From: Ulva prolifera
Lineage: Eukaryota; Chlorophyta; Ulvophyceae; Ulvales; Ulvaceae
Reading direction: 5' to 3'
NCBI GenBank assembly: GCA_023078555.1
Contig: CM041201.1
Location: 8,734,672-8,798,671, forward strand
Length of the DNA: 64,000 bases
In this document: positions 7,966 to 64,000 of the stretch, one piece after another
Layout of the letters: each line of letters starts with the position of its first letter
How positions within the stretch are numbered: the stretch's first letter is position 1
Made by a program: the position numbers and the translations under genes
Notes under the pieces: generated by a model
Database searches by the model: none
Told to the model about the DNA's origin: nothing
Seen by the model: the letters and a program-made list of their open reading frames with translations, nothing else

Positions 7966-8278
7966 TCAGTGGACTGTTCAGCCACCAAGCGCGGCCTCTT
8001 TGCCGGCGGCTGCCCACGCAAACTGCGTGGTGCTGCAGATGTGGCAGCAGTGTGGGTCTGCGTCAATGCAATACCGCAGCTTTGTCGTTGCAATCCTCAT
8101 CGTCATCGGAAGCGATGTTACACCGACCTGCAGGCATGAGAGCACTGCATACAACTGAGCCCACATGTGCCTGGGAACAAAGATCATGCAAGGCCCCGCC
8201 AGGCTGCGTTGGAGGGCAAGACCCGTCGCGACACCCAAGGATGTCCAAGCAATTGCGCGTTCGATGTGATTGTCAGAG

Positions 8279-24264: not shown

Positions 24265-26785
24265 TTGGTAAATGCAGCTGAATGCGTGAGTTTGCAGAGT
24301 CCAACATACAAAGTTGCGCAAACATCAGCGGCGTCAACGCTGCATTTGAAGCAGCGCGCCAGCCGCTGCGTCCAGTGCAAAGTTTCAAATCGCCCCACAC
24401 AACAAAACAAGCCGTCTTCACCGACAATTGAGGCAGATGAGGGTGCCGGAAAGACTGCAACCGACGCCATCCCAGCGTCCGCCAGTGTCGACATCTTGCA
24501 GACTGTGGATGGCGATGAACCAGTTGTCGACGAAGTTGCAGTGGACGAAGCAGTGGTGTTGCTTCTTGCAACAGCGACTGGTCTTGCCACAGGGTTGGGG
24601 GTTGTGCTGTTCAACGATCTAGTCCACCTAATTCAGGACCACATTGTTTGGACCAGCACCCCTCGCTTGGCGGCCTTTGGCTCCAACGGCCTGTACAGGT
24701 ATCCAAGTTTCTCCCCATGGCAAAGCCTTTTGTTGCCACCTGTTGTAGGTGGTGTTGTAGTTGCTGCCCTGCGTGGCATGGCAGGGGGATTTACGGCAGA
24801 TCCACCTGCTGTCACACCTGCTCCACGTGACACACCTCCCGCCGTCGTGAAGAATGGATCACAGCCGGCGTCAAACACGAGCGATGCTCCGCACAGCACG
24901 TCCCTGTCAGCCGAGACTGCAGCGCTGAATGCACTGGTCACCACAAGCGATGACAGCGCTCAGTCAAGACCACAAAAGACCACAGGCGCACCCCTTCAAT
25001 CCCTTGAGGTCGCAATCCCTGGCCGCTTCCCCCGCCTCAGCCAATCGCTCAGTAGCGGCACCGTCGCGATCACCGACGCTCCCCTGCACAGCCTCAAAGG
25101 AGTGCTGCGTAGGCGGGGGCTGCAGTACACGTTCCGGCCGTACATCAAGCTGGTAGCCTCCGCCATCACACTCGGCTCTGGCGCATCCATGGGCCCAGAA
25201 GGTCCCAGCGTTGAACTGGGCAAGGCCACAGCAGAGCGCATCAAGTGTGCCGCACGGGAGCAGGTGTGCCCCTGTGTCCACAATTCAAGATGCATTGGCA
25301 GCATGCATGTGATTCACTGCAGCACCCTCACAGCTGCATTTTCGTCACAACAGCCTTCACGCACATTGTACGCCTGACGTACACATTTGTCTGCAGCGAG
25401 CGAACGTGGCGACAGACCTGCTCGCCGCCGGTGCCGGTGCCGGTGTGGCTGCAGGGTTCGGCGCCCCGATGTCCGGGGTGATCTTCGCAGTCGAGACGGT
25501 GCTGCTCGCGCCAACGCGGCCTGCGGCTCCCGCCACTGCTCCCAGCAACGATGTCGCAGAGGACAGCGGGGTCCTCGTAGCCACAGTGCTCGTCGCATGC
25601 GTCACGGCGGCCGTCGTGTCGCAGGCGGGGCTCGGTCTGGAGCCCGCGTTCCATGTGCCCGCGGAGGCGCCGCTATTGGTGCAGGAGCTGCCGCTGTGCG
25701 TGCTGCTGGGCCTGATGTGCGGCACCGCTTCGGCGGGATTTGGCGCGGCAGTCGAGAACTCCGAGCGGTCGTTCGCTCGCCTGCGGCAGTGGGGCGTGCC
25801 GCCGTGGCTAATGCCCGCGGCTGGGGGGCTCGCGTGCGGCTCGCTGGCACTGCTGTTCCCAGAGATCACATACCAGGTGCGCGGCCGCGCACCCCGCATG
25901 CCGTAAGCAGCTGAGCGTCCCTTCCAGCACGTGCACCATTGCACTACATTACGCGTAACTCGCCGAGGCAGCACACCTTGGTTGCCACAACTGTGGTGTT
26001 GCAATGCCGCGTTGTGTGCATGCATATTTGTGTGTGAGAAGTAGGAGCTTGGGGTGAGGCCTGTGTCGTGTGTAGGGGTTCGACAATCTAAATGCGCTCC
26101 TGCAACTGGAGGATTCGAGTGCCAGCGCGTACTCCGCGAGCGGCCTGGCCGCGCTCGTGATTGTGAAGATTGCCGCAACCGCGGTCTGCCGTGGCTCTGG
26201 CCTCGTGGGGGGAGTCTACGCACCAGCACTGTTCATGGGTGCGTCTTAGGTTTCGCGCGCATGCAAATCGTCACTGTAAACCATTTGAGTATCCGCACAG
26301 CACGCTTGCCAGTTCCACATGTGTTGGGCCTGTACAGGTGGCTCACTGTACAACTCCCCCGCAGCGTCCTGGCACTCGGGGGTGGCTGCATGGCAGGGGC
26401 ACTGTCAGATGTAGGGAACAGGTGCCATGACTGTGGCAAATGTGCCTTCAGGACTGCAGACTAAGAAACGTTCTTGTGCGTAGGGGCTGCGCTGGGGTGC
26501 TCGTTCTGGCTCTTTGCGGACGGGGCGGTGGAAGCTGTTGCTGCTGGAGTGCCCACGACAGGCATGTGGTCGTCCATGGCGGACATGCAGCTGTCTGGGG
26601 TAAACGGTTACGCACTTGTTGGGGCTGCCGCCATGCTGGCGGCATCGTGTCGCGTGCCGCTCACGAGCGTGCTGCTGCTGTTTGAGCTCACGAGGGACTA
26701 CACCCTGATCCTGCCCACGCTGTGCGCTGTGGGCTTTGCACGATGGGGTGGTGCAACGTGGATCCGGCTGCTGAGCAGCAAGTGA
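24265..26785 (+). CDS. CLC-family chloride channel/transporter, plant CLC-e/f type
   Basis: Anion channel or exchanger, probably in a plastid or endomembrane. Exon 1 (24265 to about 25263) opens with a Ser/Thr/Lys-rich, acid-poor leader, then the first helix LLLATATGLATGLGVVLFND. After a low-complexity insert comes the anion-filter motif GSGASMGPEGPSVELGKA with the gating Glu. Exon 2 (about 25398-25878) has GAGAGVAAGFGAPMSGVIFA then VE-T, the second filter motif. Exon 3 (about 26078-26239) has SGLVGGVYAPALFMG, the GxFxP region. Exon 4 (about 26481-26785) gives SCRVPLTSVLLLFELTRDY and stops soon after. The second acidic residue used for proton transfer in exchangers is Thr here. The CBS pair common in eukaryotic CLCs is absent from this model. 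Overall it resembles plant CLC-e and CLC-f. Confidence 0.9.
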
Positions 26786-42590: not shown

Positions 42591-44830
42591 CACGGCACGC
42601 CCTGCGTCTACAAGTGGAGTCCAGCATTGCGTATTGTGAAACGTTGCATCGCGCTAGATTCAAGCACCACGCACGAGGATGTTCGAGCTCAAAGATATGA
42701 AAAAAGATATCAATCAGATATCATGCAGTCGGAAGAAGTGGCTAATCAGGCAAAACGCCATCTCTGAGACTCCCCGAACACTCGTCTAGCGATTGAGCGA
42801 CAGGAACGTTCAAGCAACGTCAGGTACCACCTATTTGCCGTCACGACGACAGTCATGGTCAAGGAGAGCGGAATAATTTGAAATTCGAACCGGCGATTGT
42901 GATTTCACGGCGCCCCGGCCCTGTTCGGAGACAGGCTTCACGCTCAGCCCATGCATTGCCAGCGCAGCTCGGCGTAGCCAGATCTCTCCTCTTCTTGCCG
43001 GACCTATTTCCCAACAAACCAGCAAGTTATAACAATGGCATTTCATATCGGCATGTCAGAATTCATCTCAGGTCTGTCAGGTGTCACGTAAAAATTTGTC
43101 CATGACTGACATGAAGTATGTGTAACTTAATCACTGACATGAAGTGCATGTGACGAGCATGCCAGGAAGCATATATGTCGGCAGAGGATGTGACCAGATC
43201 ATGACTCATGAAGCACACTGTCCACTCATATCTTTTAGCACCAGAAAGTACTCTAGCGGCAGCCTATGACAGATAGAAGTATGTCCATGTAGTCACACGC
43301 AGCGCATAAATCATATACACACGAAGACATCCCCAAACAGCCATATGCATCCGTGGGCCGTATGTATTGGGCCGCTCCCAAAAGTCAGACAGCGCCCCTC
43401 TCCCACGTCACTCTCATATTTGCACAGGAATCCACGTATGCACAGGTTTTGTGCCAGCAGCTGTTGTGCGCGAAAGGATCCAAGCCGAGCGATTGTACAG
43501 CTTGTCCTGCTCTTGGATCAGCAAATCTGAGAGAGGGGTAACATCTACGTTCGCGCAACATCAGCAAAGGATGGACAGACACTGCCACATGTAGCCAGCT
43601 ACTGCAAGGCTAATCATACCAATCTACTGCACTTCACTGCAATTCACCTCATGCGGGTCATAGCTATGAGCTTGTGCAGCCATACGGTGGACTTGCTGCT
43701 AGCTGCCCCCCCATTGAATGCTTTTTGGTGTGTACACAAAAGCGTGCGTCTCGGTGCCAAGTGATTGGAGGATCAGCTCTTTCAGACTCGGCATGGCAGC
43801 TTGCGAACAGTGACATGCATTCATGCGCATGCTCTTTCAGGACACAATGTTGACCTGTTAACACAGCTTTCCTGCTTGTGATCTACAATTCGCACGACCC
43901 ACACTTCAAGCTGATCAGCAGAAATGCACTGTACTCCGTATAATGATACTACAAGATTTCGCATGGCTAAGCGCTCATGTATTAAGCCATAACATGGCAC
44001 AACGATCTATGGGGCAAGGAGAATATTTTGGTGCATACTGGCTATAGCCTGCAGATTTTCCTTTCCATTCCAGTACAAATGTGAGACATGTCGGGAACAT
44101 GAGGTGGTGCAATCACCCGTAACTTCCTCATTGGTCACTGTCGCAGCAACATGGCAGTCCAGACATGCCTCCAGCACCATGCACAGAATGAAAGAAGAGC
44201 ATGTGCAGCAAATCCACAATTCGGTTGCCAATCACAGGGTTGGCAACAAGGACCACGTCAGCTCACATACTTGACTCCAACACATGGTGGCTTGTGAAGA
44301 GTCATATGTATGCGGTCTGCATTGTGGGCGCGAGGCTAGACGACTTGCTATTGTCCTTGGCCATGAGTAAGCACGTACAGCTGCCGCTGTCATCATCATT
44401 GCACATTATGAAATGGTGATAGAAGCAAGTCATGAGGCAGGACACGTGAATGTGAACACCCCGTCGCGCATATGCACACAAAGCACGTGAGAATATAAAT
44501 TACCTAAACGCTGGGCCAAACCAACTTGCAACGAGCAAGCGCTCTCGACAAGTAGGCCCCAGCCAGTGCTGGCCACCTATTGCCAATTGAGCTCCCCATC
44601 AACGTGTACCATTGGCATGCAGCCCCGTCCTATCGGATCTGCACTGGCCACGAGTGGGTCAAGACGCGTGCAGGCGGGCTCAGCCGTGAAACCCAAAGAA
44701 TGGTCAACACAGCACAGTATCCACCGCTACACCTCATTGACTGCAGTCCGCACAACAACGGGCTGTGCGGATGCGTGTCAACACAGACATCTGATTCGCG
44801 CATCTATCATGCAGCAGGGAGGCACCAAAA
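42591..44830. other. No supported gene
   Basis: All frames on both strands are short and show no motif or splice-consistent chain. A short direct repeat (CACTGACATGAAGT) occurs twice between 43104 and 43145. The PIG-L promoter should be at the left edge. The left flank of the tandem array (GGCACCAAAACGGTGCC, a 6-bp inverted repeat) is at the right edge. Confidence 0.5.
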
Positions 44831-44850
44831 CGGTGCCACTGCAACGCCAC

Positions 44851-45721
44851 TTAGTAGATGCGGACGGGCTTGCCCATAGTGCTCTTGAGGTAGAGGCACT
44901 TCACATTCTGCCAGTTCTTCTTCAGGAGTGACACCAGGAAATTGACCGCCATCTGAGTGTTGATGTAGACGTCTCTCTCAGACATGCCAACGTGAGCCAC
45001 ACCCACACCCATACAGAGAACCTTCTTCAGCTGGAACTTGATGGAGCACTTCAAGTCATCGATCTACAAAATGCGAACCGTGAGTGCAGTGCAACGTCGC
45101 AACACAAGAGCGTAAAGCAGACGACACAGGCTGTGAACCTGGTTCTAAATATCACCGATCACCACCATGCGATGACATGGAGCTTTGATTGGATTGTACC
45201 TGATCGCGCAGAGGTGATGTGTGGGAAACAAGGGTTGGGAATTTGCCAGCCTTGTTCAGACCAGGTCCGAGCAGACGGGGGATCTGCTTGATGATTGAAT
45301 CAGAAGCAACAAAGAAGTGGAACTTCTTTGACAGCTTCTTGACAAGCTTCTTGTTCTTGTTGAGCTTCTTTAGGTCCTCGACGGAGCGCTTCTCCACGTT
45401 GATCGACTACAACTCACACAGATGGGTTGATCAAACACCGGATCAGGACATGATACATGCGGATGCTCAAGCACGAACAGCTGATCGTACCCCAGCCTCC
45501 TCACAATGCTTCACGTCGCCAAGCACGCATGCTGTCATGCGTGGCCGCGGCATGTTTGGCAGCTTCACCGTGCCCGAGAAACGTTTGTCCTTCTGCGTAT
45601 CATAGTTCTTAAGACCGATCTGCAGCTCGATCGTCTCCTGGAAGCCGCGCTTCTTCTCCTCAGAGCCTGTAATGATGGCCGTAATGGCCTCCTTAAGCGT
45701 TTCTGTGCTCAGCTTACTCAT
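44851..45721 (-). CDS. RPL10A: 60S ribosomal protein L10a (uL1), copy 1
   Basis: Cytosolic large-subunit protein of the L1 stalk. Exon 1 (45721-45491) reads [20 protein letters not shown] and [18 protein letters not shown]. Exon 2 (45406-45200) has [19 protein letters not shown] and [18 protein letters not shown], the L1 signature. Exon 3 (45063-44851) has [38 protein letters not shown] and ends [10 protein letters not shown]. All joins are GT-AG in phase 0, giving 216 residues, against 217 in animals. No truncation or frameshift is seen, so the copy looks functional. Confidence 0.97.
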
Positions 45722-48700
45722 TTTTGGATAGTTGGTTCAAGTCCCCAGCGAAAAGGAACGATGTGCGATGGCGTCTCGCCTATATTGGCCGCGTCCCCAA
45801 GCCAACTGGTATCGGGTGCTGCGCGGTAGCGACTTGACGTCATTCAAACCCTTGTAGCCATTCATCCCGATATCGCGAAAGAGCTTAGCCTGCCACCATG
45901 GACAGCACTGCAAGATGCGGATGCAGCGTACTGCTTCATTTCAACACAGAGCAAAACTTTGTACCAAGCCTGAAAGCTGATTAGATGCTGGTGGAGTGCC
46001 GTCCGGCAACTTTCCCTACGTTCATGTTTTAGTGAACTGCAAGTAGACTCAAGACCTGTGAAACGTGAAACATCAAGATACGAAATAAAGGGGAATCAGC
46101 CGGAAGCCATACATAAATCAGCATCAGCCTTTGCACGGCAGATCAGACCCAAGGCGACCCAACAATCAGATGTCATGGAGTGCACAAATGGCAGGAATGT
46201 AGAAAACGGTAAACTTATACATAATTCATTGCCTGCAACACGCTGGGGAACCACGGTCATTCGGAGCAGCGCAGGTTCTCCCATGGGCCACGTGCTCTAA
46301 AGTGTAGTGTGACCACTTGAAGTAGTCGCCACTTCTTCAAGTGGCTGATCAGCGCCAATATTGGGCTAGTCTCAGCAACTACCACTACAGGAGGGAGCGA
46401 CCTCGTGAAATATTCCTAAATATCTGAATAGGTGGTGGCGGAGGTGGTAGCGGTGCCAGTGCAACAGGATGCAGCTGGTAGCTCTGATGCAGCCCCGGTG
46501 GCAGGACAGGCTAGCACAGGGGCCGCATATGCATGGCTGGAGGAGGTGGTTGTCCTGATGACGGCAGGAATCCTGGCGGCGGCGGCACATCTGGCGGCGG
46601 ATTCAGTCCTGGTGACGGCGGCAATCGTTGTCGCGTCATGCCACATGGTAGCAAAGCTGTTGGCGAGCTGTTGATGCAATCATCCCGATGAAGGCTTTAC
46701 CGGCGGCGTGCAGGGACGGTCTACTCGCTGTTTGCCTGAAGCTGCTGGAGCGAATCCCGTGCCCAAGTCAATGCAGTGTGCTGCATGCTCCTGCAGCCGC
46801 TGAGGCCACATGGTGGCCTGGTCTTGCGGGCAGGAGCTGGCACGCATCATGGGCATCGGCGACCTTGAGTGGATCTGTCTTTGTGCCGGCATGCGCCGCA
46901 CGGCAGAGTACGGAGTCCCACTGTGAGACACCAGCAGCATTCGAGCCGACTGCTGAGGTTGCGCAGCCTTTGGCATAAACGGAAATGGGGGGGGGGGGGG
47001 GGGGAATATGTGCAGAGGTGGCAATGCCTGAGCTGTGGAGGCAGGCGGTGCGTACATGGGTGCCAGCTGGTCCTCTGCGCTGCGGCATGCTGCGCTCTCT
47101 TCAGACGGCCCTTAAAACCGTGGAGATGCTCTTCGTGCTTGCTCGCTTGCACGGGGTGGGCTTCTTTCCAAGGCGGATGATGTGCTTGGACGCGTCTTTG
47201 CGGCCCGGACTCCATGAACATGCCTGGCCAGCCCCGCTGTTGGACTACATGCTGGGCCCCCCATGCGTCGTCCCCCCAACCAATCTGCTGGAAGTGTGCC
47301 CGTTCAGATCAGCCTGGAGCACCTCCTGGGCCATGCTACCCAAGGTGCGACGTGGGACCCGAGCCGGCGCGCTGAACCGACTTCAGTCGTGATTGCCTCG
47401 CCGTGATCAAACATGAGCATAACGTCCATGAGCCTCACATTTCCGTGAGCGCACCCAGCCGGATGGACTGGCAGGAGCGCCTTGGCGATCGTGTCGGTGA
47501 CCGCTCACACCGTCGCCATCGCCAGGCACGGTGCCTCTGCCGGCGCTGCGGCGCCCCCGCCGTCAGGACGCCGCTCTCGCTCCCGGACTCCTGTTGCCGT
47601 GTCCTCAGCAGGGCATGCAGACTGTCATTGGACCGCACTGCATCAGCACGCTCGTGACTCAAGCCTCAAACACCACTTTGCCCGGCTCGGCCGGGTGCGG
47701 TACCGAGGATTTCAGTCCCAGAACCCTGATAAGCAGTGAGCACCGTACAAGTCGGTGCATCTTGTCTGGGCGCTGTAGTGCCAGCAGGGCGCAGGCCTTT
47801 GTGGTCAGCGACTGCATTCAGCAAGTGGACATGGTGAGGGCATCCTTGCAAGGCACAGCGTGCTCTTGATCTCCGGTGCGCCTTGTCCCCCCAGAGGCCT
47901 TTGGCGTAGTTTACTCGCACCTGGTGCCTCCGTGCGGTGGCGATAATCGAACTTCACCGCTGACACAGGTGGACCAGTATGCAAGCACACGATCATGCCT
48001 GACATGGTGTTGGGAGGGCACACCGCGATGCAGACAGGTGACATCGCCGTACGGATCCTCTACCGACTTTGGACCCCTTGGACGTTCTTGGTGTAGATGT
48101 GGCTGGTGGTATGGCTGTGGATTGGGATGTATTGGTAAGTCACTCAAGTTGGTTCCCAACCCAAAAAGTTGGGGTCTGCGTTCAAACCCCGCCCGTCCAC
48201 TCGCCGCCAAATCTGGCGCCGCAAACTATTGTGCCTGTCATGCTCATGCAGGCTCTCGCATGTGCATCCTGCACCTGCGCATGCCGCCGTCTGTGTGCCG
48301 CGTCTTTTAGGTGGACGCAGGGACACGGACCCGTCGATCGGCGACCGCACGTTTATGCATGAGTTGCTTTCACGTTTCAAGTCCCATGGTCAGCTCAGAC
48401 AACGTCAGGGTCATGCACATCTGGGCACAAATGAAATCCAAGCTATAACTTTTTCTTGCTAGCACCCCTGGGTTGCCCCGGTAGTGGAGGTGGACTCTTT
48501 CGGTATGTCGGGACTCTGCAAAACCTCACCTGTGCACCGTGGCCTGCAGGGACGACAGTGTGACAGTGCACTCCGCAACTCTGGCTGCAAATCCATCACA
48601 ATTGGCCGGAGCCACGCGTGGTGCGCTCTGCAAGGGTACGTCGCCTGCAACAGAGGTGCCTCACACAGGAGACACATGTGAAGCAACTGTGTGTAAAGCA

Positions 48701-49187
48701 ACCTACAAGAGATCATGGCTGCTCATGGGAGGATGTATCCTCTTCGCAGAAGAACCACACTTTACCTTGCAGATATTGCTCGTTTACACACATTACCGCA
48801 ATCTGGCTGCAGGTGGCCACATTGTGGTCATTGCTGCATGCTTTCATATGGCAATACTTGCACACCTGCATGGAGCTGAAGCATGCACTGTGCGCTTTCC
48901 ACAGTGCACGGCGTTGCTTGTGTTCACGCCATTGCCGGGTTGCTCCTGTTTGCATGCACGCGTAAGAGCAGATACGTGGCAATGCTCATCGCAGTTGCTT
49001 GCTGGCTGTCGATGGGGCACTACGTGTGCCGTGCAACAACGCCCAGACATCTAAGAATATACGTATGCATGGTTACATAGCCTGTTCCATAGGGACATTG
49101 ACAACTCCGACATCTGGGACAGATTCAGGCATTCAAGCCACGTGCTGCCGCAATCTCTGGCTGGTGCACATAGGAGATTTGGTACAC
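45722..49187. other. Unassigned middle of tandem unit, copy 1
   Basis: About 3.5 kb between RPL10A and the CCDC148-like gene. On the minus strand parts read as proline-rich protein: HIFPPPPPPFPFMPKAAQPQ across the G run at 46987-47004, and LPPSPGLNPPPDVPPPPGFL near 46600, interrupted by an in-frame TAG. On the plus strand, frames such as MLRSLQTALKTVEMLFVLAR (near 47090) and GDRTFMHELLSRFKSHGQLR (near 48340) also look protein-like. No domain was recognised and no consistent exon chain was built on either strand, so one unidentified gene is likely but not modelled. Confidence 0.4.
46987..47004. repeat. Poly-G tract of 18, copy 1
   Basis: Uninterrupted G run, variable between units (18, 21, 18). 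If the minus strand is translated here, each triplet change adds or removes one proline without shifting frame. Confidence 0.95.
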
Positions 49188-52100
49188 CTACACCATTCGG
49201 GGCGCAGCATAGCTGCCCAAGCTTTGATCGCTTGTCAAACAGTCAATTCTCTTTGGCCTTGCACTGTTGTACATCTGCCGCAAAGTGTCTTGTGCATATG
49301 ATTTCTCAAGCAGGCCTTTGCACCTCATCATTGCCATGGCGCGGTGACGTCTGTCAGATGTGACAACTTCTGCAGAGTATCCATGCATATCAGCAAAAAC
49401 AGAGTGCTGGTGGTATGCCTCTGCCAGCATACACTTTGTCGGTTTCAAGGGCCGCTCCTTGTCTGGCTGCACATTCACTGTAACCTGAAAACACAAGGTC
49501 AGCGTTCCAAAGATCAGATCTTGGTAGGCTGGCAAGAGCACCCTGGTTGTATGATGGCTGCCAATTCTGATACCATAATAGCTCACCATGGCACGTATTC
49601 GCTTCAGCCTTGACTCGCGCGCTTGCTCTTCAGCTCTCTGGGCCTGCAACTGCAACTTTTTCTCGGCTTGCTTCTCGCAGGCCACCTTGTCCCTAAATCT
49701 CACTCTCATCGCGTTCTGCAGCCTTTGAGGTTGCCTTCGCAGTTCTGCCATCTTCAAGCTGTCCATTGCAGCTCGCCGATCAGCTGCTGCATGGCTGGCC
49801 AGACGCTGGCGTTGTACCTGCACCTTGAGTTTGCTCACCTCATGCTTCTGGATCATGGCGTCCTTTTGCGCGCGTGCTGCTGCGGCTGCTCTCGCTTGGT
49901 TTGAGGCCTCCGCCACCTGCTTTTCCAATTGCACGTGCTCATGTACTTGGCAGCATTGTTCATGCTGCAGATGCGCTCGCTGCTTTGCTACTTCAGCCTC
50001 CACCACCTGGACACTTACCTGCCTGTATGGTTTCCATCATGATCAAGAACACTAGTCAATGCACGGTATGGTGTTGAGATTGAAGACCTTGGCGCTAAAC
50101 AGGGCATGTTGCATCGCCCCTGCCTCACTTTCCAACAACAGCTGCTCACACTCCTCAGCGACTGCGCTGTGCTGCCTCATCCACATCTGGGCCAATTCCC
50201 TGCACTTGATTTTGCAAGTGTAATCCTGCCAGACCTTCCTGTCCATGCGACGTATCTCGGACAGACTCTTGCCTGGCATGCGGTGCTGGACAGCATCCAA
50301 GATCTCTCCCCTGGTCGCTGATGGTTTTATGCTGCACAGAATACAACATGCGCTCGACCGCTTGCTGTTATAAGCGCGGCCATGCCGCGAAGATGTCAGC
50401 ACGTAGACACCAACTCCAATCCCACCTGTTCACCACTTGTACCATTGCAGCATGAAATGCTGATTCATCATCTTGATTCCAGGGCACATCACGCTGGGTT
50501 TGGGCCAGGCCTTCCAATGCTTTCTGCGCCGCTTTGTGGAAGTTGCCATGCAACGCTTGAAACGCGTCTTGCACACATGCATGCGCCTCTACTGTCGCCA
50601 GCTTGTGCCTGGTAGACTCACAGCCGATCAGCACAAGCATTATGAAAGTTGACAGCTGGGCAGCAGAGGCAGCAGCACACTTGGCACACAGTTCCATTGC
50701 TTCATCTGCTGCCTCGTTTTGCCATTGCTGACGTCGTGGATCATGATCACGAAAGTGGCCATTTCCATCAGCCTCACTGTTCGGGCCGCTTGCACTACAT
50801 TGTGCTTGCTGTGGCAGATGTTCTGTCGCAGCTCCTGCATGCATGTCCATTGAATCCTGAAGCCATTGAATCCCAGCAGCTATAAACGTTGCCGGTCCAC
50901 AACTGTGTTGTTTCATCTTCAGACACGGAAACGGTGCATAGCTGTGTAACCAAAGATGAGCGAAGCCCCTTGCTCAACCTACCATGGTGATCAGACTCGA
51001 AACTCTGCGAAGCATGATCCACGCTTGAGAATCGTGCCAGGTCTAGCAGATTCCACCACCCTGGAGTATGCTTGTCATCTTGTGTCGCTTGGTGATGCCT
51101 TTGCCTGGAAGTGGCGATCAGTGTGGTTCTGACACACATGGAGTGCCACTGACGCCATGTATGATACATAGATGCTCACAGCGCACTTGATTTCATGCTG
51201 CAATGAAGCAGCCTGCTGTTCTAGAGTAGCTGCAAGCTGTACTTCGTGCCTAGCCAACGATGCAGCCTGTCCTGGTTCGAAGTGACCTGCTTTGGCACGT
51301 TCCTTGATACATTGCCTGTTCATGCGGAGGTGCGTCTCATCAGTATGGGCCTCCTCCAAGTTCTGTCTGTACTGTGATGCGTCTGCAGATGGCAGCCAAG
51401 AGACTGCCATGCACTCAAATCGCTTCTGCACATCATCCTCCAAGCTTCTTTCCTGCTGCCTGAGCATGCGCTCATCTTCAAGCCATGCTGATTTCCCAGC
51501 CTTTACATTCTGCCTGCTCCTCTGTTTACGTACGAAGGCATTGAGAAACTGGGCCTGCAGAAGCAAAAACAATCTATGTGTTTTCCAGAAGCTGTGTCAA
51601 TTCCGCAAACACTTCGGCTGTCAGCAACCTATGACCTTCTCAGATAGGTCTGCACAAGCTTTGAGTGTCCCTGGATCATCTTCCATACTTTCGCTGACGT
51701 CCGTGGAAGCATGTGCTGCTTTCTAGATGGGAATCTTGCACCGGTCAGAATATTGGCGATCATCGCGACTTGCGGCTATGGACCTTCGACAGTATGATGC
51801 TTCGCATGTTTCCGGCGAGCTCGAAGCAGTCGCATCAGCTGGCACTGAAGAAATAATGGTTGTGAACGCCGGCGACTTGTGTGTTTTCGAAACAGCACCC
51901 CGTTCGCCACTTGCACACCGTTCCGGAGCTCCGCGGAGGTAATCTTCTTTTGAAAAATCCGTGGCGTCAGTATGGACACTGAAGTGCAGCTTGCCATCCC
52001 GATCGTAATTGCGAGTTAGCGTGAGATAACCTGAATGTGGACAAGTAGCCGTGGATGCAAGCGGGCGGGCTTTGATCACAAAGCTCAAGTTATCGTGCAC
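49188..52100 (-). CDS. CCDC148-like coiled-coil protein, copy 1
   Basis: A long coiled-coil protein. The 3' block (50006-49188) is rich in Lys/Arg/Glu/Gln heptads (KQAEKKLQLQAQRAEEQARE). It ends with HGYSAEVVTSDRRHRAMAMM and KGLLEKSYAQDTLRQM, which resembles the C terminus of CCDC148-family proteins. Upstream exons give RGEILDAVQHRMPGKSLSEI with RRMDRKVWQDYTCK (about 50330-50150), EAHACVQDAFQALHGNFHKA (about 50900-50450), and DERMLRQQERSLEDDVQKRF (about 51560-51190). The first exon may start MHDNLSFVIKARPLASTATC at 52100. CCDC148 homologues are generally found in ciliated eukaryotes, so a flagellar role is inferred, not shown. Exon joins are approximate; the overall strand and order are clear. 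Confidence 0.65.
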
Positions 52101-52186
52101 GTTTCAATCGCATTTGGAAGTGAGCGGCCATCGACCATCTGCAAAAATGGCAGAACTTACCGATGCCGGTGCCACTGCAACGCCAC

Positions 52187-53060
52187 TTAGTAGATGCGGA
52201 CGGGCTTGCCCATAGTGCTCTTGAGGTAGAGGCACTTCACATTCTGCCAGTTCTTCTTCAGGAGTGACACCAGGAAATTGACCGCCATCTGAGTGTTGAT
52301 GTAGACGTCTCTCTCAGACATGCCAACGTGAGCCACACCCACACCCATACAGAGAACCTTCTTCAGCTGGAACTTGATGGAGCACTTCAAGTCATCGATC
52401 TACAAAATGCGAACCGTGAGTGCAGTGCAACGTCGCAACACAAGAGCGTAAAGCAGACGACACAGGCTGTGAACCTGGTTCTACTAAATATCACCGATCA
52501 CCACCATGCGATGACATGGAGCTTTGATTGGATTGTACCTGATCGCGCAGAGGTGATGTGTGGGAAACAAGGGTTGGGAATTTGCCAGCCTTGTTCAGAC
52601 CAGGTCCGAGCAGACGGGGGATCTGCTTGATGATTGAATCAGAAGCAACAAAGAAGTGGAACTTCTTTGACAGCTTCTTGACAAGCTTCTTGTTCTTGTT
52701 GAGCTTCTTTAGGTCCTCGACGGAGCGCTTCTCCACGTTGATCGACTACAACTCACACAGATGGGTTGATCAAACACCGGATCAGGACATGATACATGCG
52801 GATGCTCAAGCACGAACAGCTGATCGTACCCCAGCCTCCTCACAATGCTTCACGTCGCCAAGCACGCATGCTGTCATGCGTGGCCGCGGCATGTTTGGCA
52901 GCTTCACCGTGCCCGAGAAACGTTTGTCCTTCTGCGTATCATAGTTCTTAAGACCGATCTGCAGCTCGATCGTCTCCTGGAAGCCGCGCTTCTTCTCCTC
53001 AGAGCCTGTAATGATGGCCGTAATGGCCTCCTTAAGCGTTTCTGTGCTCAGCTTACTCAT
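52187..53060 (-). CDS. RPL10A: 60S ribosomal protein L10a (uL1), copy 2
   Basis: Exons 53060-52830, 52745-52539 and 52399-52187, with the encoded protein identical to copy 1 as far as read. The second intron carries the extra CTA. Upstream lies the same promoter-proximal sequence as in copy 1; downstream, the CCDC148-like gene of copy 1 begins only about 90 bp away. Confidence 0.97.
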
Positions 53061-56000
53061 TTTTGGATAGTTGGTTCAAGTCCCCAGCGAAAAGGAACGA
53101 TGTGCGATGGCGTCTCGCCTATATTGGCCGCGTCCCCAAGCCAACTGGTATCGGGTGCTGCGCGGTAGCGACTTGACGTCATTCAAACCCTTGTAGCCAT
53201 TCATCCCGATATCGCGAAAGAGCTTAGCCTGCCACCATGGACAGCACTGCAAGATGCGGATGCAGCGTACTGCTTCATTTCAACACAGAGCAAAACTTTG
53301 TACCAAGCCTGAAAGCTGATTAGATGCTGGTGGAGTGCCGTCCGGCAACTTTCCCTACGTTCATGTTTTAGTGAACTGCAAGTAGACTCAAGACCTGTGA
53401 AACGTGAAACATCAAGATACGAAATAAAGGGGAATCAGCCGGAAGCCATACATAAATCAGCATCAGCCTTTGCACGGCAGATCAGACCCAAGGCGACCCA
53501 ACAATCAGATGTCATGGAGTGCACAAATGGCAGGAATGTAGAAAACGGTAAACTTATACATAATTCATTGCCTGCAACACGCTGGGGAACCACGGTCATT
53601 CGGAGCAGCGCAGGTTCTCCCATGGGCCACGTGCTCTAAAGTGTAGTGTGACCACTTGAAGTAGTCGCCACTTCTTCAAGTGGCTGATCAGCGCCAATAT
53701 TGGGCTAGTCTCAGCAACTACCACTACAGGAGGGAGCGACCTCGTGAAATATTCCTAAATATCTGAATAGGTGGTGGCGGAGGTGGTAGCGGTGCCAGTG
53801 CAACAGGATGCAGCTGGTAGCTCTGATGCAGCCCCGGTGGCAGGACAGGCTAGCACAGGGGCCGCATATGCATGGCTGGAGGAGGTGGTTGTCCTGATGA
53901 CGGCAGGAATCCTGGCGGCGGCGGCACATCTGGCGGCGGATTCAGTCCTGGTGACGGCGGCAATCGTTGTCGCGTCATGCCACATGGTAGCAAAGCTGTT
54001 GGCGAGCTGTTGATGCAATCATCCCGATGAAGGCTTTACCGGCGGCGTGCAGGGACGGTCTACTCGCTGTTTGCCTGAAGCTGCTGGAGCGAATCCCGTG
54101 CCCAAGTCAATGCAGTGTGCTGCATGCTCCTGCAGCCGCTGAGGCCACATGGTGGCCTGGTCTTGCGGGCAGGAGCTGGCACGCATCATGGGCATCGGCG
54201 ACCTTGAGTGGATCTGTCTTTGTGCCGGCATGCGCCGCACGGCAGAGTACGGAGTCCCACTGTGAGACACCAGCAGCATTCGAGCCGACTGCTGAGGTTG
54301 CGCAGCCTTTGGCATAAACGGAAATGGGGGGGGGGGGGGGGGGGGGAATATGTGCAGAGGTGGCAATGCCTGAGCTGTGGAGGCAGGCGGTGCGTACATG
54401 GGTGCCAGCTGGTCCTCTGCGCTGCGGCATGCTGCGCTCTCTTCAGACGGCCCTTAAAACCGTGGAGATGCTCTTCGTGCTTGCTCGCTTGCACGGGGTG
54501 GGCTTCTTTCCAAGGCGGATGATGTGCTTGGACGCGTCTTTGCGGCCCGGACTCCATGAACATGCCTGGCCAGCCCCGCTGTTGGACTACATGCTGGGCC
54601 CCCCATGCGTCGTCCCCCCAACCAATCTGCTGGAAGTGTGCCCGTTCAGATCAGCCTGGAGCACCTCCTGGGCCATGCTACCCAAGGTGCGACGTGGGAC
54701 CCGAGCCGGCGCGCTGAACCGACTTCAGTCGTGATTGCCTCGCCGTGATCAAACATGAGCATAACGTCCATGAGCCTCACATTTCCGTGAGCGCACCCAG
54801 CCGGATGGACTGGCAGGAGCGCCTTGGCGATCGTGTCGGTGACCGCTCACACCGTCGCCATCGCCAGGCACGGTGCCTCTGCCGGCGCTGCGGCGCCCCC
54901 GCCGTCAGGACGCCGCTCTCGCTCCCGGACTCCTGTTGCCGTGTCCTCAGCAGGGCATGCAGACTGTCATTGGACCGCACTGCATCAGCACGCTCGTGAC
55001 TCAAGCCTCAAACACCACTTTGCCCGGCTCGGCCGGGTGCGGTACCGAGGATTTCAGTCCCAGAACCCTGATAAGCAGTGAGCACCGTACAAGTCGGTGC
55101 ATCTTGTCTGGGCGCTGTAGTGCCAGCAGGGCGCAGGCCTTTGTGGTCAGCGACTGCATTCAGCAAGTGGACATGGTGAGGGCATCCTTGCAAGGCACAG
55201 CGTGCTCTTGATCTCCGGTGCGCCTTGTCCCCCCAGAGGCCTTTGGCGTAGTTTACTCGCACCTGGTGCCTCCGTGCGGTGGCGATAATCGAACTTCACC
55301 GCTGACACAGGTGGACCAGTATGCAAGCACACGATCATGCCTGACATGGTGTTGGGAGGGCACACCGCGATGCAGACAGGTGACATCGCCGTACGGATCC
55401 TCTACCGACTTTGGACCCCTTGGACGTTCTTGGTGTAGATGTGGCTGGTGGTATGGCTGTGGATTGGGATGTATTGGTAAGTCACTCAAGTTGGTTCCCA
55501 ACCCAAAAAGTTGGGGTCTGCGTTCAAACCCCGCCCGTCCACTCGCCGCCAAATCTGGCGCCGCAAACTATTGTGCCTGTCATGCTCATGCAGGCTCTCG
55601 CATGTGCATCCTGCACCTGCGCATGCCGCCGTCTGAGTGCCGCGTCTTTTAGGTGGACGCAGGGACACGGACCCGTCGATCGGCGACCGCACGTTTATGC
55701 ATGAGTTGCTTTCACGTTTCAAGTCCCATGGTCAGCTCAGACAACGTCAGGGTCATGCACATCTGGGCACAAATGAAATCCAAGCTATAACTTTTTCTTG
55801 CTAGCACCCCTGGGTTGCCCCGGTAGTGGAGGTGGACTCTTTCGGTATGTCGGGACTCTGCAAAACCTCACCTGTGCACCGTGGCCTGCAGGGACGACAG
55901 TGTGACAGTGCACTCCGCAACTCTGGCTGCAAATCCATCACAATTGGCCGGAGCCACGCGTGGTGCGCTCTGCAAGGGTACGTCGCCTGCAACAGAGGTG

Positions 56001-56529
56001 CCTCACACAGGAGACACATGTGAAGCAACTGTGTGTAAAGCAACCTACAAGAGATCATGGCTGCTCATGGGAGGATGTATCCTCTTCGCAGAAGAACCAC
56101 ACTTTACCTTGCAGATATTGCTCGTTTACACACATTACCGCAATCTGGCTGCAGGTGGCCACATTGTGGTCATTGCTGCATGCTTTCATATGGCAATACT
56201 TGCACACCTGCATGGAGCTGAAGCATGCACTGTGCGCTTTCCACAGTGCACGGCGTTGCTTGTGTTCACGCCATTGCCGGGTTGCTCCTGTTTGCATGCA
56301 CGCGTAAGAGCAGATACGTGGCAATGCTCATCGCAGTTGCTTGCTGGCTGTCGATGGGGCACTACGTGTGCCGTGCAACAACGCCCAGACATCTAAGAAT
56401 ATACGTATGCATGGTTACATAGCCTGTTCCATAGGGACATTGACAACTCCGACATCTGGGACAGATTCAGGCATTCAAGCCACGTGCTGCCGCAATCTCT
56501 GGCTGGTGCACATAGGAGATTTGGTACAC
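53061..56529. other. Unassigned middle of tandem unit, copy 2
   Basis: Same content as in copy 1, including the proline-coding minus frames and the G tract (21 here). No gene model built. Confidence 0.4.
54326..54346. repeat. Poly-G tract of 21, copy 2
   Basis: Three G longer than in copies 1 and 3, which fits slippage in whole triplets or base-calling uncertainty in a homopolymer. Confidence 0.9.
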
Positions 56530-59442
56530 CTACACCATTCGGGGCGCAGCATAGCTGCCCAAGCTTTGATCGCTTGTCAAACAGTCAATTCTCTTTGGCC
56601 TTGCACTGTTGTACATCTGCCGCAAAGTGTCTTGTGCATATGATTTCTCAAGCAGGCCTTTGCACCTCATCATTGCCATGGCGCGGTGACGTCTGTCAGA
56701 TGTGACAACTTCTGCAGAGTATCCATGCATATCAGCAAAAACAGAGTGCTGGTGGTATGCCTCTGCCAGCATACACTTTGTCGGTTTCAAGGGCCGCTCC
56801 TTGTCTGGCTGCACATTCACTGTAACCTGAAAACACAAGGTCAGCGTTCCAAAGATCAGATCTTGGTAGGCTGGCAAGAGCACCCTGGTTGTATGATGGC
56901 TGCCAATTCTGATACCATAATAGCTCACCATGGCACGTATTCGCTTCAGCCTTGACTCGCGCGCTTGCTCTTCAGCTCTCTGGGCCTGCAACTGCAACTT
57001 TTTCTCGGCTTGCTTCTCGCAGGCCACCTTGTCCCTAAATCTCACTCTCATCGCGTTCTGCAGCCTTTGAGGTTGCCTTCGCAGTTCTGCCATCTTCAAG
57101 CTCTCCATTGCAGCTCGCCGATCAGCTGCTGCATGGCTGGCCAGACGCTGGCGTTGTACCTGCACCTTGAGTTTGCTCACCTCATGCTTCTGGATCATGG
57201 CGTCCTTTTGCGCGCGTGCTGCTGCGGCTGCTCTCGCTTGGTTTGAGGCCTCCGCCACCTGCTTTTCCAATTGCACGTGCTCATGTACTTGGCAGCATTG
57301 TTCATGCTGCAGATGCGCTCGCTGCTTTGCTACTTCAGCCTCCACCACCTGGACACTTACCTGCCTGTATGGTTTCCATCATGATCAAGAACACTAGTCA
57401 ATGCACGGTATGGTGTTGAGATTGAAGACCTTGGCGCTAAACAGGGCATGTTGCATCGCCCCTGCCTCACTTTCCAACAACAGCTGCTCACACTCCTCAG
57501 CGACTGCGCTGTGCTGCCTCATCCACATCTGGGCCAATTCCCTGCACTTGATTTTGCAAGTGTAATCCTGCCAGACCTTCCTGTCCATGCGACGTATCTC
57601 GGACAGACTCTTGCCTGGCATGCGGTGCTGGACAGCATCCAAGATCTCTCCCCTGGTCGCTGATGGTTTTATGCTGCACAGAATACAACATGCGCTCGAC
57701 CGCTTGCTGTTATAAGCGCGGCCATGCCGCGAAGATGTCAGCACGTAGACACCAACTCCAATCCCACCTGTTCACCACTTGTACCATTGCAGCATGAAAT
57801 GCTGATTCATCATCTTGATTCCAGGGCACATCACGCTGGGTTTGGGCCAGGCCTTCCAATGCTTTCTGCGCCGCTTTGTGGAAGTTGCCATGCAACGCTT
57901 GAAACGCGTCTTGCACACATGCATGCGCCTCTACTGTCGCCAGCTTGTGCCTGGTAGACTCACAGCCGATCAGCACAAGCATTATGAAAGTTGACAGCTG
58001 GGCAGCAGAGGCAGCAGCACACTTGGCACACAGTTCCATTGCTTCATCTGCTGCCTCGTTTTGCCATTGCTGACGTCGTGGATCATGATCACGAAAGTGG
58101 CCATTTCCATCAGCCTCACTGTTCGGGCCGCTTGCACTACATTGTGCTTGCTGTGGCAGATGTTCTGTCGCAGCTCCTGCATGCATGTCCATTGAATCCT
58201 GAAGCCATTGAATCCCAGCAGCTATAAACGTTGCCGGTCCACAACTGTGTTGTTTCATCTTCAGACACGGAAACGGTGCATAGCTGTGTAACCAAAGATG
58301 AGCGAAGCCCCTTGCTCAACCTACCATGGTGATCAGACTCGAAACTCTGCGAAGCATGATCCACGCTTGAGAATCGTGCCAGGTCTAGCAGATTCCACCA
58401 CCCTGGAGTATGCTTGTCATCTTGTGTCGCTTGGTGATGCCTTTGCCTGGAAGTGGCGATCAGTGTGGTTCTGACACACATGGAGTGCCACTGACGCCAT
58501 GTATGATACATAGATGCTCACAGCGCACTTGATTTCATGCTGCAATGAAGCAGCCTGCTGTTCTAGAGTAGCTGCAAGCTGTACTTCGTGCCTAGCCAAC
58601 GATGCAGCCTGTCCTGGTTCGAAGTGACCTGCTTTGGCACGTTCCTTGATACATTGCCTGTTCATGCGGAGGTGCGTCTCATCAGTATGGGCCTCCTCCA
58701 AGTTCTGTCTGTACTGTGATGCGTCTGCAGATGGCAGCCAAGAGACTGCCATGCACTCAAATCGCTTCTGCACATCATCCTCCAAGCTTCTTTCCTGCTG
58801 CCTGAGCATGCGCTCATCTTCAAGCCATGCTGATTTCCCAGCCTTTACATTCTGCCTGCTCCTCTGTTTACGTACGAAGGCATTGAGAAACTGGGCCTGC
58901 AGAAGCAAAAACAATCTATGTGTTTTCCAGAAGCTGTGTCAATTCCGCAAACACTTCGGCTGTCAGCAACCTATGACCTTCTCAGATAGGTCTGCACAAG
59001 CTTTGAGTGTCCCTGGATCATCTTCCATACTTTCGCTGACGTCCGTGGAAGCATGTGCTGCTTTCTAGATGGGAATCTTGCACCGGTCAGAATATTGGCG
59101 ATCATCGCGACTTGCGGCTATGGACCTTCGACAGTATGATGCTTCGCATGTTTCCGGCGAGCTCGAAGCAGTCGCATCAGCTGGCACTGAAGAAATAATG
59201 GTTGTGAACGCCGGCGACTTGTGTGTTTTCGAAACAGCACCCCGTTCGCCACTTGCACACCGTTCCGGAGCTCCGCGGAGGTAATCTTCTTTTGAAAAAT
59301 CCGTGGCGTCAGTATGGACACTGAAGTGCAGCTTGCCATCCCGATCGTAATTGCGAGTTAGCGTGAGATAACCTGAATGTGGACAAGTAGCCGTGGATGC
59401 AAGCGGGCGGGCTTTGATCACAAAGCTCAAGTTATCGTGCAC
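56530..59442 (-). CDS. CCDC148-like coiled-coil protein, copy 2
   Basis: Matches copy 1 except for one Asp-to-Glu substitution in the coiled coil (AAMESLKMAEL, base 57103). No stop or frameshift separates the copies, so if copy 1 is functional this one should be too. Confidence 0.65.
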
Positions 59443-59528
59443 GTTTCAATCGCATTTGGAAGTGAGCGGCCATCGACCATCTGCAAAAATGGCAGAACTT
59501 ACCGATGCCGGTGCCACTGCAACGCCAC

Positions 59529-60402
59529 TTAGTAGATGCGGACGGGCTTGCCCATAGTGCTCTTGAGGTAGAGGCACTTCACATTCTGCCAGTTCTTCTT
59601 CAGGAGTGACACCAGGAAATTGACCGCCATCTGAGTGTTGATGTAGACGTCTCTCTCAGACATGCCAACGTGAGCCACACCCACACCCATACAGAGAACC
59701 TTCTTCAGCTGGAACTTGATGGAGCACTTCAAGTCATCGATCTACAAAATGCGAACCGTGAGTGCAGTGCAACGTCGCAACACAAGAGCGTAAAGCAGAC
59801 GACACAGGCTGTGAACCTGGTTCTACTAAATATCACCGATCACCACCATGCGATGACATGGAGCTTTGATTGGATTGTACCTGATCGCGCAGAGGTGATG
59901 TGTGGGAAACAAGGGTTGGGAATTTGCCAGCCTTGTTCAGACCAGGTCCGAGCAGACGGGGGATCTGCTTGATGATTGAATCAGAAGCAACAAAGAAGTG
60001 GAACTTCTTTGACAGCTTCTTGACAAGCTTCTTGTTCTTGTTGAGCTTCTTTAGGTCCTCGACGGAGCGCTTCTCCACGTTGATCGACTACAACTCACAC
60101 AGATGGGTTGATCAAACACCGGATCAGGACATGATACATGCGGATGCTCAAGCACGAACAGCTGATCGTACCCCAGCCTCCTCACAATGCTTCACGTCGC
60201 CAAGCACGCATGCTGTCATGCGTGGCCGCGGCATGTTTGGCAGCTTCACCGTGCCCGAGAAACGTTTGTCCTTCTGCGTATCATAGTTCTTAAGACCGAT
60301 CTGCAGCTCGATCGTCTCCTGGAAGCCGCGCTTCTTCTCCTCAGAGCCTGTAATGATGGCCGTAATGGCCTCCTTAAGCGTTTCTGTGCTCAGCTTACTC
60401 AT
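59529..60402 (-). CDS. RPL10A: 60S ribosomal protein L10a (uL1), copy 3
   Basis: Exons 60402-60172, 60087-59881 and 59741-59529. Protein identical to the other copies as far as read, complete with start, intron signals and stop. Confidence 0.97.
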
Positions 60403-63400
60403 TTTTGGATAGTTGGTTCAAGTCCCCAGCGAAAAGGAACGATGTGCGATGGCGTCTCGCCTATATTGGCCGCGTCCCCAAGCCAACTGGTATCGGGTGC
60501 TGCGCGGTAGCGACTTGACGTCATTCAAACCCTTGTAGCCATTCATCCCGATATCGCGAAAGAGCTTAGCCTGCCACCATGGACAGCACTGCAAGATGCG
60601 GATGCAGCGTACTGCTTCATTTCAACACAGAGCAAAACTTTGTACCAAGCCTGAAAGCTGATTAGATGCTGGTGGAGTGCCGTCCGGCAACTTTCCCTAC
60701 GTTCATGTTTTAGTGAACTGCAAGTAGACTCAAGACCTGTGAAACGTGAAACATCAAGATACGAAATAAAGGGGAATCAGCCGGAAGCCATACATAAATC
60801 AGCATCAGCCTTTGCACGGCAGATCAGACCCAAGGCGACCCAACAATCAGATGTCATGGAGTGCACAAATGGCAGGAATGTAGAAAACGGTAAACTTATA
60901 CATAATTCATTGCCTGCAACACGCTGGGGAACCACGGTCATTCGGAGCAGCGCAGGTTCTCCCATGGGCCACGTGCTCTAAAGTGTAGTGTGACCACTTG
61001 AAGTAGTCGCCACTTCTTCAAGTGGCTGATCAGCGCCAATATTGGGCTAGTCTCAGCAACTACCACTACAGGAGGGAGCGACCTCGTGAAATATTCCTAA
61101 ATATCTGAATAGGTGGTGGCGGAGGTGGTAGCGGTGCCAGTGCAACAGGATGCAGCTGGTAGCTCTGATGCAGCCCCGGTGGCAGGACAGGCTAGCACAG
61201 GGGCCGCATATGCATGGCTGGAGGAGGTGGTTGTCCTGATGACGGCAGGAATCCTGGCGGCGGCGGCACATCTGGCGGCGGATTCAGTCCTGGTGACGGC
61301 GGCAATCGTTGTCGCGTCATGCCACATGGTAGCAAAGCTGTTGGCGAGCTGTTGATGCAATCATCCCGATGAAGGCTTTACCGGCGGCGTGCAGGGACGG
61401 TCTACTCGCTGTTTGCCTGAAGCTGCTGGAGCGAATCCCGTGCCCAAGTCAATGCAGTGTGCTGCATGCTCCTGCAGCCGCTGAGGCCACATGGTGGCCT
61501 GGTCTTGCGGGCAGGAGCTGGCACGCATCATGGGCATCGGCGACCTTGAGTGGATCTGTCTTTGTGCCGGCATGCGCCGCACGGCAGAGTACGGAGTCCC
61601 ACTGTGAGACACCAGCAGCATTCGAGCCGACTGCTGAGGTTGCGCAGCCTTTGGCATAAACGGAAATGGGGGGGGGGGGGGGGGGAATATGTGCAGAGGT
61701 GGCAATGCCTGAGCTGTGGAGGCAGGCGGTGCGTACATGGGTGCCAGCTGGTCCTCTGCGCTGCGGCATGCTGCGCTCTCTTCAGACGGCCCTTAAAACC
61801 GTGGAGATGCTCTTCGTGCTTGCTCGCTTGCACGGGGTGGGCTTCTTTCCAAGGCGGATGATGTGCTTGGACGCGTCTTTGCGGCCCGGACTCCATGAAC
61901 ATGCCTGGCCAGCCCCGCTGTTGGACTACATGCTGGGCCCCCCATGCGTCGTCCCCCCAACCAATCTGCTGGAAGTGTGCCCGTTCAGATCAGCCTGGAG
62001 CACCTCCTGGGCCATGCTACCCAAGGTGCGACGTGGGACCCGAGCCGGCGCGCTGAACCGACTTCAGTCGTGATTGCCTCGCCGTGATCAAACATGAGCA
62101 TAACGTCCATGAGCCTCACATTTCCGTGAGCGCACCCAGCCGGATGGACTGGCAGGAGCGCCTTGGCGATCGTGTCGGTGACCGCTCACACCGTCGCCAT
62201 CGCCAGGCACGGTGCCTCTGCCGGCGCTGCGGCGCCCCCGCCGTCAGGACGCCGCTCTCGCTCCCGGACTCCTGTTGCCGTGTCCTCAGCAGGGCATGCA
62301 GACTGTCATTGGACCGCACTGCATCAGCACGCTCGTGACTCAAGCCTCAAACACCACTTTGCCCGGCTCGGCCGGGTGCGGTACCGAGGATTTCAGTCCC
62401 AGAACCCTGATAAGCAGTGAGCACCGTACAAGTCGGTGCATCTTGTCTGGGCGCTGTAGTGCCAGCAGGGCGCAGGCCTTTGTGGTCAGCGACTGCATTC
62501 AGCAAGTGGACATGGTGAGGGCATCCTTGCAAGGCACAGCGTGCTCTTGATCTCCGGTGCGCCTTGTCCCCCCAGAGGCCTTTGGCGTAGTTTACTCGCA
62601 CCTGGTGCCTCCGTGCGGTGGCGATAATCGAACTTCACCGCTGACACAGGTGGACCAGTATGCAAGCACACGATCATGCCTGACATGGTGTTGGGAGGGC
62701 ACACCGCGATGCAGACAGGTGACATCGCCGTACGGATCCTCTACCGACTTTGGACCCCTTGGACGTTCTTGGTGTAGATGTGGCTGGTGGTATGGCTGTG
62801 GATTGGGATGTATTGGTAAGTCACTCAAGTTGGTTCCCAACCCAAAAAGTTGGGGTCTGCGTTCAAACCCCGCCCGTCCACTCGCCGCCAAATCTGGCGC
62901 CGCAAACTATTGTGCCTGTCATGCTCATGCAGGCTCTCGCATGTGCATCCTGCACCTGCGCATGCCGCCGTCTGAGTGCCGCGTCTTTTAGGTGGACGCA
63001 GGGACACGGACCCGTCGATCGGCGACCGCACGTTTATGCATGAGTTGCTTTCACGTTTCAAGTCCCATGGTCAGCTCAGACAACGTCAGGGTCATGCACA
63101 TCTGGGCACAAATGAAATCCAAGCTATAACTTTTTCTTGCTAGCACCCCTGGGTTGCCCCGGTAGTGGAGGTGGACTCTTTCGGTATGTCGGGACTCTGC
63201 AAAACCTCACCTGTGCACCGTGGCCTGCAGGGACGACAGTGTGACAGTGCACTCCGCAACTCTGGCTGCAAATCCATCACAATTGGCCGGAGCCACGCGT
63301 GGTGCGCTCTGCAAGGGTACGTCGCCTGCAACAGAGGTGCCTCACACAGGAGACACATGTGAAGCAACTGTGTGTAAAGCAACCTACAAGAGATCATGGC

Positions 63401-63868
63401 TGCTCATGGGAGGATGTATCCTCTTCGCAGAAGAACCACACTTTACCTTGCAGATATTGCTCGTTTACACACATTACCGCAATCTGGCTGCAGGTGGCCA
63501 CATTGTGGTCATTGCTGCATGCTTTCATATGGCAATACTTGCACACCTGCATGGAGCTGAAGCATGCACTGTGCGCTTTCCACAGTGCACGGCGTTGCTT
63601 GTGTTCACGCCATTGCCGGGTTGCTCCTGTTTGCATGCACGCGTAAGAGCAGATACGTGGCAATGCTCATCGCAGTTGCTTGCTGGCTGTCGATGGGGCA
63701 CTACGTGTGCCGTGCAACAACGCCCAGACATCTAAGAATATACGTATGCATGGTTACATAGCCTGTTCCATAGGGACATTGACAACTCCGACATCTGGGA
63801 CAGATTCAGGCATTCAAGCCACGTGCTGCCGCAATCTCTGGCTGGTGCACATAGGAGATTTGGTACAC
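60403..63868. other. Unassigned middle of tandem unit, copy 3
   Basis: Same as copies 1 and 2, with an 18-base G tract at 61668-61685. No gene model built. Confidence 0.4.
61668..61685. repeat. Poly-G tract of 18, copy 3
   Basis: Uninterrupted G run in the same place as in the other units. Confidence 0.95.
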
Positions 63869-64000
63869 CTACACCATTCGGGGCGCAGCATAGCTGCCCA
63901 AGCTTTGATCGCTTGTCAAACAGTCAATTCTCTTTGGCCTTGCACTGTTGTACATCTGCCGCAAAGTGTCTTGTGCATATGATTTCTCAAGCAGGCCTTT
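63869..64000 (-). CDS. CCDC148-like coiled-coil protein, copy 3 (3' end only)
   Basis: Only the last codons (ending SYAAPRMV) are inside the window; the rest lies beyond 64000. Identity is taken from the matching position in copies 1 and 2. Confidence 0.6.
   Translation of the reverse strand, partial: KGLLEKSYAQDTLRQMYNSARPKRIDCLTSDQSLGSYAAPRMV

Follow-up and report, generated by a model that had tools for sequence, protein, structure and literature searches.

The 64,000-nucleotide stretch of Ulva prolifera DNA analyzed here (hereafter the window) is the last 64 kb of a contig, C6, which ends at base 8798671, corresponding to window position 64000. Its right-hand part carries a head-to-tail array of near-identical units of ~7.34 kb, each comprising the gene for the ribosomal protein RPL10A (uL1), an intergenic stretch, a gene for a predicted coiled-coil protein, and the stretch before the neighboring gene SAE1 together with the first 19 SAE1 coding bases. 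Comparison of the window with itself through shared 20-mers gave dominant offsets of 7342 (7298 words), 7339 (4155) and 14681 (4136); offsets of 7336 and 14678 (298 20-mers each) reflect the same array, and the next offset, 855, shares five. The window contains no N, and its GC content is 50-61%. The recent head-to-tail amplification of ~7.34 kb proposed in the initial annotation is therefore borne out, both by offsets 7339 and 7342 and by the near-identity of the copies. The accompanying count of two full copies and a partial third holds within the window; the array, however, stops with C6 itself at position 64000, and the third copy is completed on another contig, C8.

Differences among the copies are few. 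Copy 1 lacks a 3-bp CTA, slippage-like in character, that both other copies have; a G-run measures 18, 21 and 18 bases in copies 1, 2 and 3, and a substitution reads T, A and A at 48294, 55636 and 62975, respectively. A second substitution, G in copy 1 (49761) and C in copy 2 (57103), changes D to E at residue 92 of the last-exon open reading frame (ORF) of the coiled-coil gene in copy 2 relative to copy 1; the C8 part of copy 3 likewise has C and is otherwise the same as copy 2. Over ~7.34 kb, copy 1 thus departs from the other two at two substituted bases and one 3-bp indel, whereas the length of the G-run is the sole difference between copies 2 and 3. The run is a perfect G18 at 46987-47004 and a G21 in copy 2 at 54326, and further G or C runs of 23 and 14 bases occur in the window at 8278 and 14194. 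Long G-runs are often unreliable in sequencing. Near-identity extends through introns and intergenic DNA, and the copies are adjacent, share a common novel junction and are bounded by single-copy flanks, all of which are properties of a recent tandem segmental duplication.

The edges of the unit can be placed to the base. Its left edge lies 20 bases past the RPL10A stop codon, as had been annotated, but its right edge falls 19 bases into the SAE1 reading frame, and not just upstream of the neighboring gene as had been proposed. Both internal junctions read GATG, C, CGGTGCC, with a central C that occurs at neither outer edge; in the outer flanks the neighboring base is A at left and right alike. 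A 30-mer across the junction occurs exactly twice in the 88.9-Mb assembly, both times on C6. The left flank (1831 bases) and the right flank (618 bases) each have one occurrence in the genome, directly abutting the unit. The coordinates of these features are collected in Table 1.

Table 1. Features of the tandem array, in window coordinates.
Feature	Position	Strand	Remarks and basis
Repeat copy 1	44831..52166		7335 native bases plus extra junction C at 52166; copy alignment, junction compared with outer edges
Repeat copy 2	52167..59508		7341 native bases plus extra junction C at 59508; alignment, junction
Repeat copy 3, first 4492 bases	59509..64000		Other 2846 bases are C8:26538-29383
Left-edge hairpin, GGCACC-AAAAC-GGTGCC	44821..44837		Break 44830/44831 in loop
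First 19 bases of SAE1 frame plus extra C	52147..52166	+	Unit right edge, junction of copies 1 and 2
First 19 bases of SAE1 frame plus extra C	59489-59508	+	Unit right edge, junction of copies 2 and 3
RPL10A (uL1) copy 1	44851..45721	-	CDS exons 45721-45491, 45406-45200, 45063-44851; 216 aa; splice model
RPL10A copy 2	52187..53060	-	Exons unchanged; coordinates by offset
RPL10A copy 3	59529..60402	-	Exons unchanged; coordinates by offset
Coiled-coil gene copy 1	49188..51686	-	ORFs and translation; 5' end uncertain, start 51686 read by eye
Coiled-coil gene copy 2	56530..59028	-	Coordinates by offset
Coiled-coil gene copy 3, 3' end	63869..64000	-	Remainder on C8; coordinates by offset

The initial annotation had placed an intact RPL10A in every copy, and the three exons are indeed identical in all three. 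The predicted protein matches eukaryotic cytosolic uL1 chains over its full length (phmmer; residues 2-216 of 216, best E 3e-95). A search of the assembly for the uL1 family returned 11 exon-level matches, six of them in the array and five at three other places. The place on C2 has RSL1D1 and Utp30-type proteins as its best matches; that at 5.23 Mb on C4 is closest to the L1 chain of 4v61 and then to bacterial L1; and that at 1.76 Mb on C4 is closest to bacterial L1, as judged from one of its two matched exons. We take 4v61 to be a chloroplast ribosome. Because these other matches best fit RSL1D1/Utp30-type proteins or bacterial and 4v61 L1, RPL10A is found at the array locus only, in agreement with the initial annotation's description of a single-copy gene that was amplified. 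Among four other ribosomal-protein families searched, S3Ae, L21e and L18A are each found at one place, and L3 at one clustered locus on C6 and two partial, unclassified places on C5. Of the polyadenylation motifs TGTAA and AATAAA, the native 3' flank of RPL10A contains neither in 851 bases; behind copies 2 and 3 (787 bases each) TGTAA occurs once, at 684 bases, and AATAAA is absent, a comparison that is uninformative. A search of viral contigs with RPL10A for the gene order preceding duplication yielded 112 pattern matches, none of them confirmed, and none of the literature titles and abstract openings surveyed dealt with amplification of ribosomal-protein genes in algae.

SAE1 forms the right flank of the array. 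It is intact at C8:29365-30336 as an intronless frame of 324 codons that matches SUMO-activating enzyme subunit 1 over residues 4-305 (best E 1.5e-25). Within the assembly the frame is found at one place at 100%, with a weak second match on C3 (32%, residues 9-126, E 4.2e-10) that is unclassified. Behind SAE1 on C8, ORFs read by eye presumably represent RPA1 and EPSP-synthase fragments.

When the remainder of the unit was searched against the assembly, two full matches and one partial match were found on C6 and one match at C8:26538-29383 (among 40 matches, these being 40 of 86 candidates scored; unit matches are at 100%, rounded). The C8 segment lies directly after a run of 100 N (C8:26438-26537), and C8:26538 is the very next base of the unit after the end of C6, so that the two parts abut base-exactly and copy 3 totals 4492 + 2846 = 7338 bases. 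The whole unit, searched in two pieces against 44 contigs, revealed no fourth copy or loose unit elsewhere. Because exactly 100 N and a base-perfect abutment favor a scaffold gap, the three full units probably belonged to one input contig that was cut within copy 3 during scaffolding, its right part being put on C8. The possibility of an assembly artefact, raised in the initial annotation, is thereby upheld for the scaffolding, which is doubtful where copy 3 is divided between C6 and C8, but finds no counterpart in N gaps between the copies. Elsewhere in the assembly, C11, C20 and C32 are exactly 100000, 200000 and 15000 bases long, and 9 of the 40 contigs C1-C40 begin with at least 60 N; both observations may reflect fixed-position cuts in scaffolding. 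Telomere arrays were not seen in the first 2 kb of C1-C40 (40 of the 44 contigs), where the maximum was eight TTAGGG/CCCTAA motifs, on C10.

The array is most simply read as a recent, true head-to-tail tandem duplication of a single 7.34-kb locus, assembled as three copies, to which we assign a probability of roughly 0.75. Under this interpretation, one break, in or next to the hairpin lying 20 bases beyond the RPL10A stop codon, and another, within the beginning of the SAE1 frame, would have been joined without homology and with the addition of one base, giving two copies. Exchange between these copies could then have produced the third and duplicated the same junction, after which scaffolding would have cut the assembled contig within copy 3 and sent the right-hand part to C8. 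The identity of the two junctions, extra C included, fits a single founding join that was copied later. That the left break falls within a hairpin loop (6-bp stem) is suggestive, no more; window 1-44830 holds 106 such hairpins, and 1.3% of its positions are inside or adjacent to their loops. In the 301 bases examined at each edge, the only repeats are short pairs, direct or inverted; one inverted pair has 11-nt arms at 52145-52155 and 52242-52252 (91%) and was rejected as the cause of the join, as such arms would not yield a head-to-tail arrangement. In its gene-sized unit, identical junctions, very low divergence and intact genes, the head-to-tail array resembles recent tandem segmental duplications expanded by unequal exchange, a form of copy-number variation. 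What sets it apart from a typical example is that the cytosolic ribosomal protein gene it includes was found nowhere else in the assembly. The array is thus ordinary in kind and mildly notable for its cargo.

Several points weigh against this interpretation. The evidence comes from the assembly, and the separateness of copies 2 and 3, distinguished by G18 and G21, depends on the assembler. A lack of N is not proof of true duplication, because false duplications are sometimes joined by sequence lacking read support, according to PMC9516828. The equation of 100 N with a scaffold gap is itself interpretive, and N runs may mean something else. The hairpin argument is a single post-hoc test, and the extra C could have arisen by mutation after a join that used a single base of homology.

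The alternative that survives best is a real tandem duplication with another copy number, either two, if a single sequence was entered as both copy 2 and copy 3, or above three, if some were collapsed. It overlaps the preferred reading, which leaves the number open, and our estimates for the several readings, which likewise overlap one another, need not add up to one. The resemblance of copies 2 and 3 in all but their G-run speaks for it, as does the fact that 22 kb of near-identical DNA is longer than many reads; yet the three assembled copies are bounded left and right by unique flanks, and the search of 44 contigs found no further unit. We regard a number other than three as possible rather than probable. 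That the locus holds at least two copies is very likely, and the odds that it holds exactly three are about even.

A false duplication, in which alleles or noisy versions of a single-copy locus were retained by the assembler as extra copies, is improbable. The differences between copies are small enough for allelic variation or error, one of them sits in a G-run of 18-21 bases, and the assembly is divided at the very same place, so that the locus does resemble the heterotype and homotype false duplications of PMC9516828 in having near-identical adjacent copies where the assembly splits. In that study, false duplications are mostly separated by gaps, though the joins can also consist of sequence without read support. 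Here no N gap lies between any pair of copies, and the one N run found is at the split inside copy 3 (this comparison concerns N gaps, and the study also names read-depth gaps). Further unlike such cases, the array repeats a novel junction exactly, and a locus present only once would not supply the same junction, extra C included, twice over. It is just as hard to credit that the contig was truly chimeric and correctly cut, with one unit-bearing locus on C6 and another beside SAE1 on C8, as the placement of the right part would have it, when the split lies 4492 bases inside a copy, away from the unit edge, the two sides abut base-exactly, and each outer flank continues what is truncated at its own edge of the unit (left, the 3' flank of RPL10A; right, SAE1), as one tandemly duplicated locus gives.

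The remaining content of the unit is less readily named. Six ORFs of the coiled-coil region gave no Pfam match above cut-off, with weak matches below it for three (best TBPIP/Hop2, E 0.0071), and the two of the six tried against the PDB gave no match. The ciliary nature suggested for this gene in the initial annotation is tentative. CCDC148, considered from a motif likeness, was dropped; it is described as lacking in Chlamydomonas in PMC11781205. Between RPL10A and the coiled-coil gene, none of the 10 ORFs chosen in a search for a third gene had a Pfam match at E 0.5; two further ORFs gave no match and a weak, sub-cut-off match to TMEM171 (E 0.58), respectively. No tRNA and no Rfam match at gathering score were found in the window. 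A fragment at 49039-49162 (also 56381-56504 and 63720-63843) has 36 scored dispersed copies of 99-124 bases at 79-83%. The 11 dispersed copies examined are parts of longer repeats, with pairwise segments mostly at 94-100%; three of the dispersed repeats (L060, L061 and L062) have 3.1 kb in common at 100%. Elsewhere in the window, ORF 36417-37322 matches GPI-transamidase Gaa1 (E 1e-20) and ORF 24265-25377 a chloride channel (E 2.8e-6), and the other 8 of 10 window ORFs tried had no family match at E 0.01.

The assembly split inside the array is a more useful result than the duplication itself: this is a probable scaffolding error, in which the end of C6 should join C8:26538, and it would make gene counts and synteny here misleading. 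For the genes, the duplication alters context as well as number. At the outer ends, SAE1 is still intact (right) and RPL10A still has its native 3' flank (left). RPL10A copies 2 and 3 have lost that flank. Each is now followed, ~0.5 kb downstream and on the same strand, by the coiled-coil gene of the unit before it, and into its 3' end points a duplicated SAE1 start region in antisense orientation, whose frame runs for 22 codons across the junction before a stop. One unlikely prospect is a still-live copy-number variant in which RPL10A gains dosage and is rewired at the same time; the extra copies may then give fusion transcripts or be silenced, and their number may vary among strains. As a sharply bounded duplication of recent date whose founding junction can still be read, and which multiplies a ribosomal protein gene and changes its transcription context, the array is a natural test of dosage balance.
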